Assembly: GCA_002719425.1 (NCBI GenBank)
Contig: PBHA01000018.1
Coordinates: 5,280-69,279 of the forward strand
Length of the DNA: 64,000 bases
Source of the DNA: Chloroflexota bacterium
GTDB lineage: Bacteria; Chloroflexota; Dehalococcoidia; UBA1151; TMED-70
Direction: 5' to 3'
The translations under genes and the position numbers were made by a program. Below the pieces are notes generated by a model. It made no database searches. It worked only from the letters and a program-made list of their open reading frames with translations, and was not told the DNA's origin. Position 1 is the stretch's first letter, and every line of letters begins with the position of its first letter. Below are positions 31,539 through 39,404 of this stretch, piece after piece.

Positions 31539-34402
<2,864 letters not shown>

Positions 34403-34957: not shown

Positions 34958-35552
34958 TTTTATATAAATTATTATCGGTTATATATTTAACTATTTCTAT
35001 TGGAGTGTCATTAACAATTGGCTTATTTGAAAATATTTTATTTCTTATCAACGTTGAACTCAAATCCGAAATATCATCAAAGAAAATTATATTATCAACT
35101 TCCTTTGCTTCGAAATTTGAATCAGATCTTTTTATAACTAAAAAGTTATAATCTCTAAGAAGTTCATCACCTTTTTTCCACATATTAATTTCCTTATAAG
35201 AGTCTAGACCTAATACAATAGTATCTATTTTAGGATAATGAGGTTTTTCGTTCAAAAAATTAATAGTATCGTATGTATAACTTGGAGAATCTCTATGAAC
35301 TTCAAAATCAATAAGTTCTATTTTTGAAAAGTTTTTCAAAGCAATCGAACACATTTCATATCTTTGCAATGGTGTCGCGAGAGGTTTTGATTGTTTCATA
35401 TAAGGGTTGCCTGCAGGGACAATACAAAATCTTTCAGGATTTATTTTTTTATTAATTCTTTTGATTATTTCAATGTGACCAAAATGAATTGGATCAAAAG
35501 TACCTCCAAAAAAGAGCGATTTAATTTTTTTAATCTTGCCATGAAAATTCAT
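34950..35552 (-). CDS. nadD: Nicotinate-nucleotide adenylyltransferase
   Basis: NadD (200 residues) transfers AMP to nicotinate mononucleotide in NAD synthesis. The nucleotidyltransferase signature FFGGTFDPIHFGHIEI contains the HxGH-type motif, and the C-terminal ISDLSSTLIRNKI is the second conserved motif. SYTYDTINFL and VLGLDSYKEIN are typical of NadD. It overlaps obgE upstream by 23 bases and pyrE downstream by eight. An Obg-NadD adjacency is common in bacteria, which supports the call. Confidence 0.92.
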   Translation of the reverse strand: MNFHGKIKKIKSLFFGGTFDPIHFGHIEIIKRINKKINPERFCIVPAGNPYMKQSKPLATPLQRYEMCSIALKNFSKIELIDFEVHRDSPSYTYDTINFLNEKPHYPKIDTIVLGLDSYKEINMWKKGDELLRDYNFLVIKRSDSNFEAKEVDNIIFFDDISDLSSTLIRNKIFSNKPIVNDTPIEIVKYITDNNLYKNE

Positions 35553-36762
35553 AATTTGAAATTATTAATTTATCTCCTTTTTTTATTCCCAAATCAATTA
35601 ATTCTTTAGCAAGATTAGAGTTTTTGATTCTATACTGAAACTGAACTAAAGCTTTCCAGTTATTTAAGTCTGAACCTTCTGCCAATTGGACAAATGTTTT
35701 ATCTAAAACTTCATAATTTTCTTTGATTTTTTTTACTTTTAATTTTATTCCTTCATCTAAGGATATTGTAGGAACAAAATCTGAATGAGAAAAATATTCA
35801 AATTTATTTTTATTTGAATGAACATATTCAATAATATCCTTTTCATCGGTATTATTCGTAAAAAAGATTGGAACATTAAAAGTTTTATTAAGAGAGCTAG
35901 AAATTGATTTTTTTTCTGTTTCTGAAAATTTTTCTGATTTAGTTAAAACAACTATAGTTTTTTCGAGTAAAAGTTTTCTATCAAAATCAGAAAAGTTTTC
36001 GATAATATTTTCGAAGGAACCTTTAATGTCCTGATTTGAATCTATCATGAAACAAAATAATTTAGCAGAATGAATGTGTTTTATATATTTCATGCCTAAA
36101 CCTTTTTTATTTTCTATTCCTGGTAGCTCAACGACTGTGATATTCGAATATTTATACTTGGATACAGCTATGAATGGAACTTTCGTGGTAAAGGGATAAT
36201 CTTTTATCTCTGGCTTAGCATTAGAAATATTTCTAATGAAAGTAGATTTTCCGGTATTTGGTGATCCTAATAATAATAAATCAGAAGAAATTCTCAAATC
36301 CAGTTCCAGAGTATGCACAGGTGTTAATTGCCCTCCTTCAGCAAGCAAAGGTTCCTTATTTTGGGAAGAAACAAATGAAGTATTGCCTCTTCCTCCAACT
36401 CCACCTGAGAATAAAATTATTTCTTCGTCTTTTTCTAAAAGGGCTACCAAAAGTTTTTTTTCATGGCCATTAATTTCCCATACCAAACAACCAAAAGGAA
36501 GGTCAATTATCAGGTCTTTTCCCTTTTGACCCGATTTGTTTTGTTTGGAACCGTCAAAACCATTTTCAGCCGAAAACTTATTTTTATAAGAGTATTTTCT
36601 CAGGTCTGACAAATTCGGGTTAGATCTAATAATAATATTACCCCCGTTTCCTCCGTTTCCTCCATCAGGACCACCTCTAGAGTTATTTGAATCTTTATTA
36701 AAACTAACAGATCCTTTTCCACCGTCACCTGATTTAACTTTAATTATTAAACTATCTATCAT
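35530..36762 (-). CDS. obgE: GTPase Obg/CgtA with altered G3 and G4 motifs
   Basis: Obg (410 residues) is a ribosome-associated GTPase. The glycine-rich Obg fold is intact (GDGGKGSVSF, GGPDGGNGGNGGN), as are the P-loop GSPNTGKSTF, the effector region DYPFTTKVP and a C-terminal OCT domain ending DKLIISNYEFSW. Two nucleotide motifs deviate: G3, normally DIPG, reads ELPG (Glu212) with a shortened switch II, and G4, normally NKxD, reads TKSE (Thr274-Glu277). These positions set Mg2+ contact and guanine specificity, so nucleotide use may be changed. It is the first gene of the obgE-nadD-pyrE-mazG-like operon, 125 AT-rich bases after dnaA. Confidence 0.9.
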   Translation of the reverse strand: MIDSLIIKVKSGDGGKGSVSFNKDSNNSRGGPDGGNGGNGGNIIIRSNPNLSDLRKYSYKNKFSAENGFDGSKQNKSGQKGKDLIIDLPFGCLVWEINGHEKKLLVALLEKDEEIILFSGGVGGRGNTSFVSSQNKEPLLAEGGQLTPVHTLELDLRISSDLLLLGSPNTGKSTFIRNISNAKPEIKDYPFTTKVPFIAVSKYKYSNITVVELPGIENKKGLGMKYIKHIHSAKLFCFMIDSNQDIKGSFENIIENFSDFDRKLLLEKTIVVLTKSEKFSETEKKSISSSLNKTFNVPIFFTNNTDEKDIIEYVHSNKNKFEYFSHSDFVPTISLDEGIKLKVKKIKENYEVLDKTFVQLAEGSDLNNWKALVQFQYRIKNSNLAKELIDLGIKKGDKLIISNYEFSWQD

Positions 36763-36887
36763 ATATATATTTTAATAGTATTTAATAATATTGTTGAAAT
36801 TGTTTATATCAAGATAACTTATAATTGAATTTATTTTTTATATTTTTGTCAAAAAATGTTGATAGAAATAAATAATTGTTTAGGAAA

Positions 36888-38192
36888 TTAATTATTTAAT
36901 ATACTTTTCTCAATTTCCGCTTTTAATTGAACATTTTTTGACAGTTCTTTTTTTATTTTGTTGACAGAATATATTATTGTTGAATGATTTCTGTTTCCAA
37001 GTAATTTTCCTGCTTGAGATGTTGAAAAGTTTGATTTTTCTATAAGCAAATATGCTGCGAACTGTCTTGCATAGTTTGTTTTTTTATCATTTTTTCTACT
37101 TTTTAAGTCATTTTCATCAATTCCAAACATATATTTTATTAGAGAAAATATTTTCTCTATAGAAATAGTTATATCTTTTATATTTTCTAACTTATAGTCT
37201 GAGATAACATTAGCCACCATTTCTTGAGAAATACTTTTATTTAATAATTCTGAATGTGCTAGAAGTGACTTAATTATCCCCTCTATTTCACTGAATGAAT
37301 TGAATTTTTTTGAGGAAATATAGTCCACAATGCTTTCTTCAAATTCTGAGGTTGATTGTTTGATTTTATTTATAATATATTTTTTAGATGTCTCTTTATC
37401 TGGACTTTGAATTTTTACGATTAGACCAGACTTGAGTATTGAGGTTAACCTTGATGACATATTAACTTTTGTAGGATGATTGTATGAAGTTACAATAACC
37501 TGTTTTTCAGATAACTGTAATTGATTAATTATATGAATAAGTGATTCTACAGTTTGTTTTTTTCCAGAAAAAAAATCAATATCGTCAATTATGAATACAT
37601 CACAATTCCTATATTTTTTCATTTCTTCTAAATTATTGTTCTTTATAGACTTAACAAAATCGTTAGTGAAATGTTCACCAGTAACGGAAACTATATTTAA
37701 ACCTTTTATTTTTAATGTTTTGGCTATTGCTTGTATTAAGTGTGTTTTTCCTAAGCCCCATTCTCCATAAATGTAGAGAGGATTGTATAAACTACCAGGA
37801 GTTTCACATACTTTTTTAGCTGCAGCATAGGCAAGAAAGTTTGAAGTTCCTGTTATGAAGTTATTGAAATTAAATCGTGGATTTATCCAAGATCCTTTAA
37901 TATTTCCTGATTTTTTATTCTGAGAATTTTCTACTTCATTTGTTGATAGAACATATTTTGGTTTAAGGTTTTTTCCGGAAGTTTGCGCTAAAGCGTCATT
38001 GATAGATTCTTCAAGCCTTTGTGTGAGCATTTCAATTGCAAAAATACTTTCAACAGAGATTATTATTTCTTCGTCTTCTATTGCAAGAGCTTTAGTGTTT
38101 CTTAACCAGGTCTTATATGTACTTTCATCTACTACTAATTCAAGATAACCTAAGGCACCTGACCAAATATTTTTTGCATTTATATTTTCCAG
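36888..38192 (-). CDS. dnaA: Divergent DnaA initiator, CTG start
   Basis: A DnaA-family replication initiator. An ATG at 38030 gives 380 residues, but the open frame continues upstream and encodes a proper domain I (NIWSGALGYLELVVDESTYK, TWLRNTKAL). The best start is CTG at 38192, six bases after a perfect AGGAG, giving 434 residues. Walker A (GEWGLGKTHL) and Walker B (VFIIDDIDFF) are intact. Key regulatory residues differ from the norm: the box VII arginine finger is Ile252, the sensor II arginine is Ser309 and the other arginine of that helix is also Ser, the sensor I region reads TSYNHP, and the domain IV signature is GNRNHST with Asn402 for Asp. No dnaN is adjacent. It is either a derived initiator or a DnaA paralogue. 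Confidence 0.88.
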   Translation of the reverse strand: MENINAKNIWSGALGYLELVVDESTYKTWLRNTKALAIEDEEIIISVESIFAIEMLTQRLEESINDALAQTSGKNLKPKYVLSTNEVENSQNKKSGNIKGSWINPRFNFNNFITGTSNFLAYAAAKKVCETPGSLYNPLYIYGEWGLGKTHLIQAIAKTLKIKGLNIVSVTGEHFTNDFVKSIKNNNLEEMKKYRNCDVFIIDDIDFFSGKKQTVESLIHIINQLQLSEKQVIVTSYNHPTKVNMSSRLTSILKSGLIVKIQSPDKETSKKYIINKIKQSTSEFEESIVDYISSKKFNSFSEIEGIIKSLLAHSELLNKSISQEMVANVISDYKLENIKDITISIEKIFSLIKYMFGIDENDLKSRKNDKKTNYARQFAAYLLIEKSNFSTSQAGKLLGNRNHSTIIYSVNKIKKELSKNVQLKAEIEKSILNN

Positions 38193-38204: not shown

Positions 38205-38480
38205 AAAAATTTAAAAAAATTTAAATATAAATAAGTTTTTTATATAGCGATTCTTTTGCGACGAAGAACTTTTAACAAGCTTCTAAAATTAAGATAGAAG
38301 CTTCAAATACCGCATTTAAAAAAAATAGCATATCAAAATATTAATAAAAGTCTGAAATAATGAAATAACTTTCAATTTCTACTAAATTAATAGAAAATCA
38401 ATAATTTTTTTTTTGTTGTAAGATTGAATATAAATATTTGATACATAAACGCTTATAATTCTATTAAATAATTTAATTTT
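38205..38480. other. AT-rich dnaA-fmt spacer, possible origin region
   Basis: About 276 bases between divergent dnaA and fmt. It is mostly A/T and holds a perfect 9-base inverted repeat, AAGCTTCTA (38277-38285) and TAGAAGCTT (38295-38303), with a 9-base loop and no T-tract. It also holds a tandem TGAAATAA pair near 38353 and a perfect TATAAT at 38454-38459 that may serve fmt, although no -35 is well spaced. I found no TTATCCACA-type DnaA boxes. An origin role is possible from position and composition only. Confidence 0.35.
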
Positions 38481-39404
38481 ATGAACATAATATTTTTTGG
38501 ATCTCAAGATGAATCTATTGAATTATTAGCTGAAATATCTAATAATCATAATATTTTGGCTATAATCTCTAAGCCTTTGCCCAAAAATTCAAAAAGAAGA
38601 AAATTTATTAATCCCAAACTTTATGAATATTCTCAAAAAAATAATATTCTATTCTTATGTCCCAATAAATTAGACTCTACTTTTGAAGAAACAATTAAGT
38701 CTCTTGATCCTGATTTATCAATTGTTATGTCTTATGGAAAGATTCTTAAAAAAAACCTAATAAATATTCCTAGATACGGAACAATAAATATCCATCCATC
38801 TTTATTGCCTGTATATAGAGGCCCGTCACCTATTCAAAATACAATATTAAATCAAGATAAAAAAACTGGCTTCACTGTTATACAAATGGATGAGGGTGTA
38901 GATACTGGAGACATCTTATACAAAAGCAAAAAATATGATCTTAATTTGGATGAAACTTATACTGAATTATTAAGATTTTTATTTAATGAATCTTCAAAAA
39001 TAATAAATAATTTATTAAGTAAAATTGATAATAAGGAGCTATGCACCCAAAAACAAAATAACAAATTAGCCACCTATACAAGTTTAATTGAAAAAAAATC
39101 AGGAGAAATTAATTGGGATGTTGAAGCATCTAGTATATATGCAAAATTTAGAGCTTTTAGCGAATGGCCAAAGATTTACTCATTTTTCAATCAAAAAAGA
39201 TTTATAATCCATGACCTGCTTGTTTCAGACTATAAATCAACTAATCCAGGAAATTTGGAAAAAATAGATGGAAAAATTTGTGTTCACACATCTACTCAAA
39301 ATATAATTTTAAGTCAAATTCAATTTGACGGAAAAAAAATTATAGATGCCTCCGCGCATTTCAGTAATTTTGATTTATCTAAAATAAACTTAAGGACTAA
39401 CTAA
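38481..39404 (+). CDS. fmt: Methionyl-tRNA formyltransferase
   Basis: Fmt (307 residues) formylates initiator Met-tRNA using 10-formyl-THF. The formyltransferase core is clear: INIHPSLLPVYRGPSPI carries the catalytic Asn and His, and MDEGVDTGDIL carries the catalytic Asp. The C-terminal OB-fold domain is present (SGEINWDVEASSIYAKFRAF). The N-terminus reads IIFFGSQDESIELL rather than the usual FxGTPxFA, a mild divergence. It lies divergent from dnaA. def, its usual partner, is not nearby. The start ATG follows a perfect -10-like hexamer by 21 bases. Confidence 0.92.
   Translation: MNIIFFGSQDESIELLAEISNNHNILAIISKPLPKNSKRRKFINPKLYEYSQKNNILFLCPNKLDSTFEETIKSLDPDLSIVMSYGKILKKNLINIPRYGTINIHPSLLPVYRGPSPIQNTILNQDKKTGFTVIQMDEGVDTGDILYKSKKYDLNLDETYTELLRFLFNESSKIINNLLSKIDNKELCTQKQNNKLATYTSLIEKKSGEINWDVEASSIYAKFRAFSEWPKIYSFFNQKRFIIHDLLVSDYKSTNPGNLEKIDGKICVHTSTQNIILSQIQFDGKKIIDASAHFSNFDLSKINLRTN

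Follow-up and report, generated by a model that had tools for sequence, protein, structure and literature searches.

Can a DnaA protein still act as replication initiator once the residues with which it reads its nucleotide are gone? The question is raised by a dnaA gene within a stretch of 64,000 nucleotides from a Chloroflexota bacterium (contig PBHA01000018.1; hereafter, the window, meaning this whole stretch). A preliminary description had offered two readings of the gene, a paralogue with a new role or an initiator that operates in the absence of the usual ATP switch. The evidence presented here favours the latter: with a probability of roughly 0.6, the protein is the sole DnaA of a small-genome marine clade of Dehalococcoidia (SAR202/TMED70-type) and its working initiator, with an origin in the gap between dnaA and obgE and with the usual ATP/ADP switch lost.

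Among the best 120 of 8000 candidates scored in a search of some 5.8 billion proteins are 32 close relatives (P0001-P0032), part of them fragmentary, after which the score falls from 403 to 277 bits; the remainder of the best 120 lie at 31–37% identity. Eight related loci were found in the genome collection, in metagenome-assembled genomes titled Chloroflexi, Dehalococcoidia, Dehalococcoidales, SAR202 cluster or TMED70, and a ninth genome, G022, was found by a class-wide search. These nine draft genomes together with the window constitute the clade discussed below. In the GyrB tree and the DnaA tree alike it is a single branch supported at 100/100, the stem being 0.83 long for GyrB and 2.05 for DnaA; its sister group differs between the two trees, with weak support. 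The G022 pieces (1.249 Mb, 30.6% GC) resemble the streamlined SAR202 of PMC11994032, and we infer a match of subgroup; the word 'DnaA' is absent from the text of that paper.

Within the band of 58–70% GyrB identity, DnaA identity amounts to 32.1 ± 2.1 between clade and outside proteins (152 pairs) and to 44.2 ± 7.5 among outside proteins (82 pairs, with a lowest value of 31.8 that touches the clade range). G215 was left out of this comparison as a duplicate row and included in the DnaA tree. As a sign of special DnaA evolution, overall divergence is at most partly useful, since the identity ranges touch and the neighbouring ObgE diverges as fast as DnaA or faster.

The gene and the neighbours used in this analysis are located in the window as follows.

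31638..34037, plus strand: gyrB, a nearby gene that served as species-tree control
35530..36762, minus strand: obgE, conserved downstream neighbour of dnaA
36888..38192, minus strand: dnaA, 434 amino acids with recognisable domains I, III and IV and a probable start codon CTG (38190-38192)
38481..39404, plus strand: fmt, conserved divergent upstream neighbour of dnaA

The frame from 38192 to 36888 is open over 434 codons, and the ORF with a standard start (ATG) spans just 38030..36888, or 380 amino acids. Recovery of domain I requires the in-frame CTG at 38192, which has AGGAG six bases before it; ATG-based calls drop this domain because the apparent start codon of dnaA is a CTG, preceded by a good ribosome-binding site. 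In the 434-residue form PF11638 (DnaA_N), PF00308 (Bac_DnaA) and PF08299 (Bac_DnaA_C) are all matched in Pfam. The same form narrowly passes TIGR00362, the NCBIfam DnaA equivalog (348.8 versus a cut-off of 343.9), below which fall the 380-residue ATG form (316.6) and the clade member L007 (311.1). An AlphaFold2 model based on a 36-row alignment has a mean pLDDT of 84.7 and a pTM of 0.58, and its top structural match is DnaA in a replication-origin complex (PDB code: 8btg), with the same fold and 34% identity.

A probable CTG start, read from aligned upstream sequences, is likewise seen in L001, L003, L006 and L007. Other clade starts are ATG in L002, TTG in L008, ATG one codon upstream in L074 and GTG one codon upstream in L004 and L005. 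The dnaA leader carries a block, TTCGTCGC (about 38235-38275 in the window), which precedes dnaA in conserved form at 10/10 clade loci; Rfam and tRNA scans of the window gave no match.

The codons on which the argument turns are listed next, with the equivalent residues of E. coli K-12 DnaA (L124).

37482..37484, minus strand: Tyr237 codon, equivalent to D269 (sensor I)
37437..37439, minus strand: Ile252 codon, equivalent to R285 (arginine finger)
37431..37433, minus strand: Lys254 codon, a new invariant lysine, from alignment and codon check
37290..37292, minus strand: Ser301 codon, equivalent to R334 (sensor II)
37089..37091, minus strand: Asn368 codon, equivalent to R399 (which reads the minor groove of the DnaA box)
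36987..36989, minus strand: Asn402 codon, equivalent to D433, a change that is not clade-specific

Residues were compared, in E. coli numbering, across an alignment of 107 distinct DnaA ORFs (from 119 matches in fetched loci) and the best 120 of the 8000 scored proteins. Of its rows, 42 belong to the clade (28 distinct sequences when the last 200 residues are compared), seven to a divergent group, G205-G211, and 178 are others; rather than a random bacterial sample, these others are the proteins closest to the query, DnaAs from the same class (mostly Dehalococcoidia) and E. coli DnaA. The Walker A (WGLGKTH) and Walker B (IIDDID) motifs had been described as intact, the arginine finger of box VII as replaced by Ile252 and sensor I as TSYNHP, and all three descriptions hold. 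The box VII segment reads SSRLTSILKSGL, in which R285 has become I252 and R281 persists as R248; position 285 is Ile in 37 and Met in 5 of the 42 clade rows, and Arg in 176 of the 178 others, with one X and one Cys (P0081). D269 (Y237 in the window) is Tyr in 42/42 clade rows, the 178 others having Asp in 161, Asn in 15, one Glu and one X. In the sensor II helix, SEIEGIIKSL, both arginines are indeed serines, but the sensor II arginine itself corresponds to Ser301, the first serine of SEIEG, and not to Ser309, which aligns with E. coli R342. Every clade row has Ser at R334, and 177 of the 178 others have Arg, the exception being an X. The check suggested at the outset, whether related DnaAs share the changes, thus returned R285, R334 and D269 altered in 42/42 rows.

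Two further changes lie in domain IV. R399 (N368 in the window) was missing from the changes first listed; it is Asn in 24 and Thr in 18 of the 42 clade rows, versus Arg in 167 and Lys in 10 of the 178 others, with one gap. The signature GNRNHST, with D433 changed to N402, is present as described, but the weight placed on it is unsupported: the clade has Asn in 38, Asp in 3 and Gly in 1 of 42 rows, its members G007 and G008 being among those that retain Asp, and the 178 others have Asp in 135, Asn in 31 and several other types in the remainder. D433N was consequently rejected as the key change, given its Asn in 31/178 non-clade rows. All codons of the E. coli comparison were checked.

R227, D235, D236, K243, R281 and L290 are unchanged in 42/42 clade rows, and K178 (40 of 42 rows; two gaps), F46 (38 rows) and W6 (29 rows) are unchanged wherever the row has a residue. 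The protein resembles canonical DnaA (TIGR00362; E. coli, B. subtilis) in its domains I, III and IV, its Walker motifs and box VII R281, its AID residues R227/L290, K243 and V211, its helix-turn-helix with H434 and its fold; it differs in that the clade lacks R285, R334, D269 and R399 and has a variant box at its putative origin. Judged by the functions assigned to R285, R334, R281, R227, L290, K243 and the sensor 1 motif in E. coli (PMC5742627), the missing residues would be those that read the nucleotide, and the retained ones those that hold the P-loop and the neighbouring subunit.

The switch could conceivably have been rebuilt rather than lost, with the nucleotide contacted by Lys254 or by further residues invariant in the clade (Tyr272, Phe200, Asp206, Tyr237) and assembly still dependent on ATP through new chemistry. 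Lys254, two residues past the lost finger, is Lys in 42/42 clade rows and in 1/178 others; E. coli I305 is Tyr (Tyr272), L232 is Phe (Phe200) and Q238 is Asp (Asp206) in 42/42 rows each; Walker A and B are retained; and in the AlphaFold2 model R248, I252 and K254 are predicted to lie on a single helix (residues 247–254). A lysine two positions further is, however, displaced on that helix, and the sensor II arginine has no apparent stand-in, Lys308 being Asn in 3/42 rows. We regard a rebuilt switch as possible but rather unlikely. The protein is most likely a functional initiator whose ATP switch is either lost or rebuilt.

The substitutions could in principle be artefacts of assembly or frameshifting, as the sequences come from metagenome-assembled genomes. 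The same changes are nevertheless common to 28 distinct clade proteins and all 42 rows, no internal stops occur in 10/10 clade dnaA genes, and dN/dS of dnaA is 0.043–0.097 in 7/7 clade pairs, three of which have dS >1.4, near saturation. With dN/dS at 0.04–0.10, such an error, which had been named as a possible refutation, has a negligible likelihood.

If a canonical DnaA encoded elsewhere were the initiator, the gene in the window would be a paralogue or regulator. Draft genomes may miss genes, and additional PF00308 matches do exist in clade genomes. Yet each of the nine clade drafts, all distinct from the window's own genome, has one DnaA-grade match (142–164 bits to PF00308); where weaker PF00308 matches were opened, in three places, they proved to be a tandem AAA+ protein beside dnaB (G001, G008) and RuvB (G007). 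The order fmt-dnaA-obgE-nadD-pyrE is conserved in 9/9 clade loci and in 9/9 sister loci for which at least some 13 kb of sequence is available, gyrB coming next in 9/9 clade loci and 4/9 long-flank sister loci, and an array of variant boxes (below) occupies the same locus. Because of the single DnaA-grade gene in 9/9 drafts and the conserved gene order, the window gene is taken as an orthologue and not a paralogue, apparently the sole DnaA of the clade; a paralogue with a new role is disfavoured, and we consider it very improbable. The absence of an adjoining dnaN, correctly noted before (the neighbours are obgE and fmt), is not diagnostic, as dnaN lies apart from dnaA in all 21 of the 30 clade and related genomes in which it was located.

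The tandem protein beside dnaB is about 455 amino acids long (L009:3437-4798 and L011:3158-4531) and is built of two successive IstB/DnaC/DnaA-like P-loop domains; its gene directly adjoins dnaB, and it is a candidate tandem helicase loader. Like-sized PF00308 double matches occur in many further family genomes.

Downstream of dnaA, the gap before obgE contains a row of box-like sequences in one direction.

36763..36887, minus strand: dnaA-obgE gap, putative oriC, with same-direction variant boxes followed by an AT-rich tail
36877..36885, minus strand: box-like TCCTAAACA, which ends in AACA and departs from.T.T.AACA (C at position 2)
36857..36865, minus strand: variant box CTATCAACA, matching.T.T.AACA
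36801..36809, minus strand: variant box ATATAAACA, matching.T.T.AACA
36792..36800, minus strand: variant box ATTTCAACA, the final box ahead of the AT-rich tail
36763-36791, minus strand: AT-rich tail, ending at the obgE start

The gap measures 125–132 bases in eight loci, and the 147 bases taken in L002 and L074 extend slightly into obgE. Across the 10 clade loci the pattern.T.T.AACA, a DnaA box having A in place of C6, occurs 28 times in the forward and 0 times in the reverse direction, compared with a mean of 3.1 and a maximum of 9 in 1000 dinucleotide shuffles, the pattern having been derived from the same gaps and the loci being related. Because the pattern came from the tested sequences and the loci are kin, a more independent matrix scan was run. 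With a matrix trained on sites of other genomes, G022 left out, the gap is the top cluster in the 1.249 Mb of G022 (51 bits, the next scoring 39 or 43 depending on settings). A matrix made without close kin places the gap first in the window (30.7, with the second, 28.8, at 37020 inside dnaA) and first in 80 kb of G003. On the deepest branch it ranks fourth in G007 (130 kb) and fifth in G008 (170 kb) among the box clusters of the contig. The second-best variant-box cluster of G022 lies at C5:164149 on the minus strand.

Canonical boxes had been reported as lacking nearby, and in the window none is present within about 1.4 kb of the gene, but variant boxes are. Near dnaA, TTWTNCACA occurs 0 or 1 times per clade locus (10 loci); at least two canonical boxes within 600 bp were found in 35 of 106 other stretches, which include some genomes twice and have unequal flanks. 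Throughout G022, TTATCCACA occurs 9 times versus 15.1 expected, with no pair within 600 bp, and TTWTNCACA 112 times versus 177.7 expected, with at most 2 within 600 bp. On these counts, below expectation and without clustering, the canonical box was rejected as the one used near dnaA.

Boxes with A6 outnumber those with C6 after dnaA in 10/10 clade loci. The same holds for 3/29 family loci with D433 (C6 in excess in 15/29), 1/30 loci in the rest of the class (the reverse in 17/30) and 4/8 loci of G213-G222/G215 (the reverse in 2/8); the G205-G211 loci lean neither way (0/7), and in G058/G223-225, which have N433, A6 prevails in 0/4 and C6 in 2/4. Base composition alone is not the cause of the A6 boxes, because the AT-rich relatives L046, L050 and L056 retain C6-type boxes. 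The TTA part of the box is contacted by R399 and its TNCACA part by the helix-turn-helix (PMC5742627), and D433 is among the base-contacting residues (PMC7561715); changes at R399 and D433 would fit a shifted box. A TTATCAACA box has been recorded once, in Cyanothece (PMC4674748). A strict link between N433 and A6 boxes was rejected, as N433 goes with C6-type boxes in G058/G223-225 and D433 with A6-type boxes in G007/G008.

Runs of the DnaA-trio kind, which together with boxes make up the basal unwinding system, were also sought. Beside the last box the summed run in the clade is 23, versus a shuffle mean of 18.6, with 91/2000 shuffles as high, and over the whole clade gap (150-base stretches) there is no enrichment (mean z 0.13); one locus, L006, has one trio run of 4. 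Members of the family with D433 are also unenriched (mean z −0.03), and the G213-G222 group, in which the finger is intact, reaches a mean z of 3.19 (250-base stretches). The contrast between the clade and the finger-keeping G213-G222 group is suggestive only. In the same gap, L115-L122 (G213-G222, G215; finger intact) carry TTAACA/TAACA-type repeats and long runs of TTA repeats that resemble DnaA-trios.

Strand composition gives a further indication of where replication may begin. T-A residuals were taken at fourfold sites, with the coding-strand offset removed, and assessed by 5000 gene permutations, which ignore operon autocorrelation; the genomes are related. The residual switches at dnaA from −0.053 to +0.078 in the window (0/5000 permutations as high), from −0.032 to +0.038 in G007 (1/5000), from −0.026 to +0.029 in G008 (17/5000) and from −0.003 to +0.066 in G003 (11/5000), and in G022 the change (−0.003 to +0.025) is not significant (911/5000). 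The cumulative T-A minimum falls inside dnaA in the window, G007 and G003, and elsewhere in G008 and G022. Fourfold GC residuals shift weakly in the same sense in G007 and G008, are opposite in the window and are flat elsewhere, and binned fourfold skews across G022 indicate no clear origin. Raw GC skew was rejected as an origin marker, being terminus-like around dnaA in the window.

These data bear on whether replication might proceed independently of DnaA, DnaA having become a transcription factor or a protein that binds the chromosome, and the gap being a regulatory region. The loss of residues important for oligomerisation would be accounted for, as would the unenriched trio runs, unlike those of the G213-G222 group, and boxes adjacent to dnaA can act in autoregulation (PMC6727663). 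The array, however, lies downstream of dnaA and away from its promoter, the T-A composition switches at dnaA in 4/5 contigs, and F46 and W6 of domain I are retained wherever present; we judge DnaA-independent replication to be improbable.

Initiation by this DnaA can be envisaged as follows. A retuned domain IV would bind the row of direct variant boxes (.T.T.AACA) adjoining the AT-rich stretch. Three nucleotide-reading residues are gone: D269 of sensor I, which itself confers tight ATP/ADP binding, R285, which senses the ATP of the neighbour, and R334, which serves hydrolysis. With Walker A/B and the interface residues R227, K243, R281 and L290 retained, any ATP bound would be structural, and assembly would depend on how the boxes are spaced, on domain I and on what is left of the AAA+ interface, comparable to E. 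coli DnaA(R285A) on oriC-allADP. Timing would be set by the amount of DnaA, by titration or by helicase loading, and not by an ATP/ADP cycle. The earlier proposal of an initiator without the usual ATP switch is supported to the extent of the clade-wide loss of R285, R334 and D269, the selection on the gene and the putative origin after dnaA; independence from ATP as such is a proposal.

In E. coli, R285 is needed for assembly of ATP-DnaA at low-affinity sites, and R334 acts in hydrolysis, initiation complexes being able to form without it (PMC5742627). The lethality of R285A is suppressed by oriC-allADP, with loss of timing (PMC6727663). That construct and the clade would have in common initiation without finger-mediated ATP oligomers, on sites that do not discriminate the ATP and ADP forms, but the former is a mistimed laboratory construct and the latter natural, selected and also devoid of the sensor II and sensor I residues. 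There is perhaps an even chance that the clade naturally initiates with a DnaA lacking the finger, the sensor II arginine and the sensor I aspartate, on direct-repeat altered boxes and with no ATP/ADP switch, as an evolved counterpart of DnaA(R285A) on oriC-allADP.

The finger is termed invariant in DnaA in PMC8287927, where finger-to-Ala DnaAs of B. subtilis and three Gram-negatives gave no strand separation, including the three that do not need ATP; failure of the B. subtilis finger mutant is also reported in PMC10721633. Because such mutants fail, loss of the finger should cripple DnaA unless compensated, and either another contact has evolved, for which Lys254 is a candidate, or the geometry of the origin makes a filament needless. 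The DnaA proteins of H. pylori, S. elongatus and D. radiodurans are reported to separate strands without ATP (PMC8287927), which resembles what is proposed for the clade, but those proteins require the arginine finger and the clade has none. Among the papers listed in searches of open-licence literature, a scope outside which most subscription papers fall, none was on a natural finger-less DnaA. A clade under strong selection without finger and sensor II residues would separate the role of ATP in origin opening from its role in timing, and is a natural test of whether the ATP switch of DnaA is required; with a short candidate origin and a protein of 434 amino acids, a direct in vitro test is feasible.

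A second odd DnaA occurs in the same family, in G205-G211 (L104-L110; relatives of 1.9–3.0 Mb). It is likewise strongly divergent, with one DnaA-grade match per genome, but it differs from the clade protein in that R285 and R334 persist and the second Asp of Walker B is gone along with R281 and D433: in 7/7 members Walker B DDIQ is DG[IV]E, R281 is Glu, D269 is Asn and D433 is Pro. Its stem length is 3.18 for DnaA versus 0.60 for GyrB (three members in the trees). In the three of seven members examined just the fmt-dnaA linkage was seen, obgE not being found adjoining dnaA. Finally, G003 contains a second GyrB-like frame (C27:5891-8407; 52% identity), perhaps ParE or a contaminant, which at 856 amino acids is the sole such frame among the 30 genomes compared.
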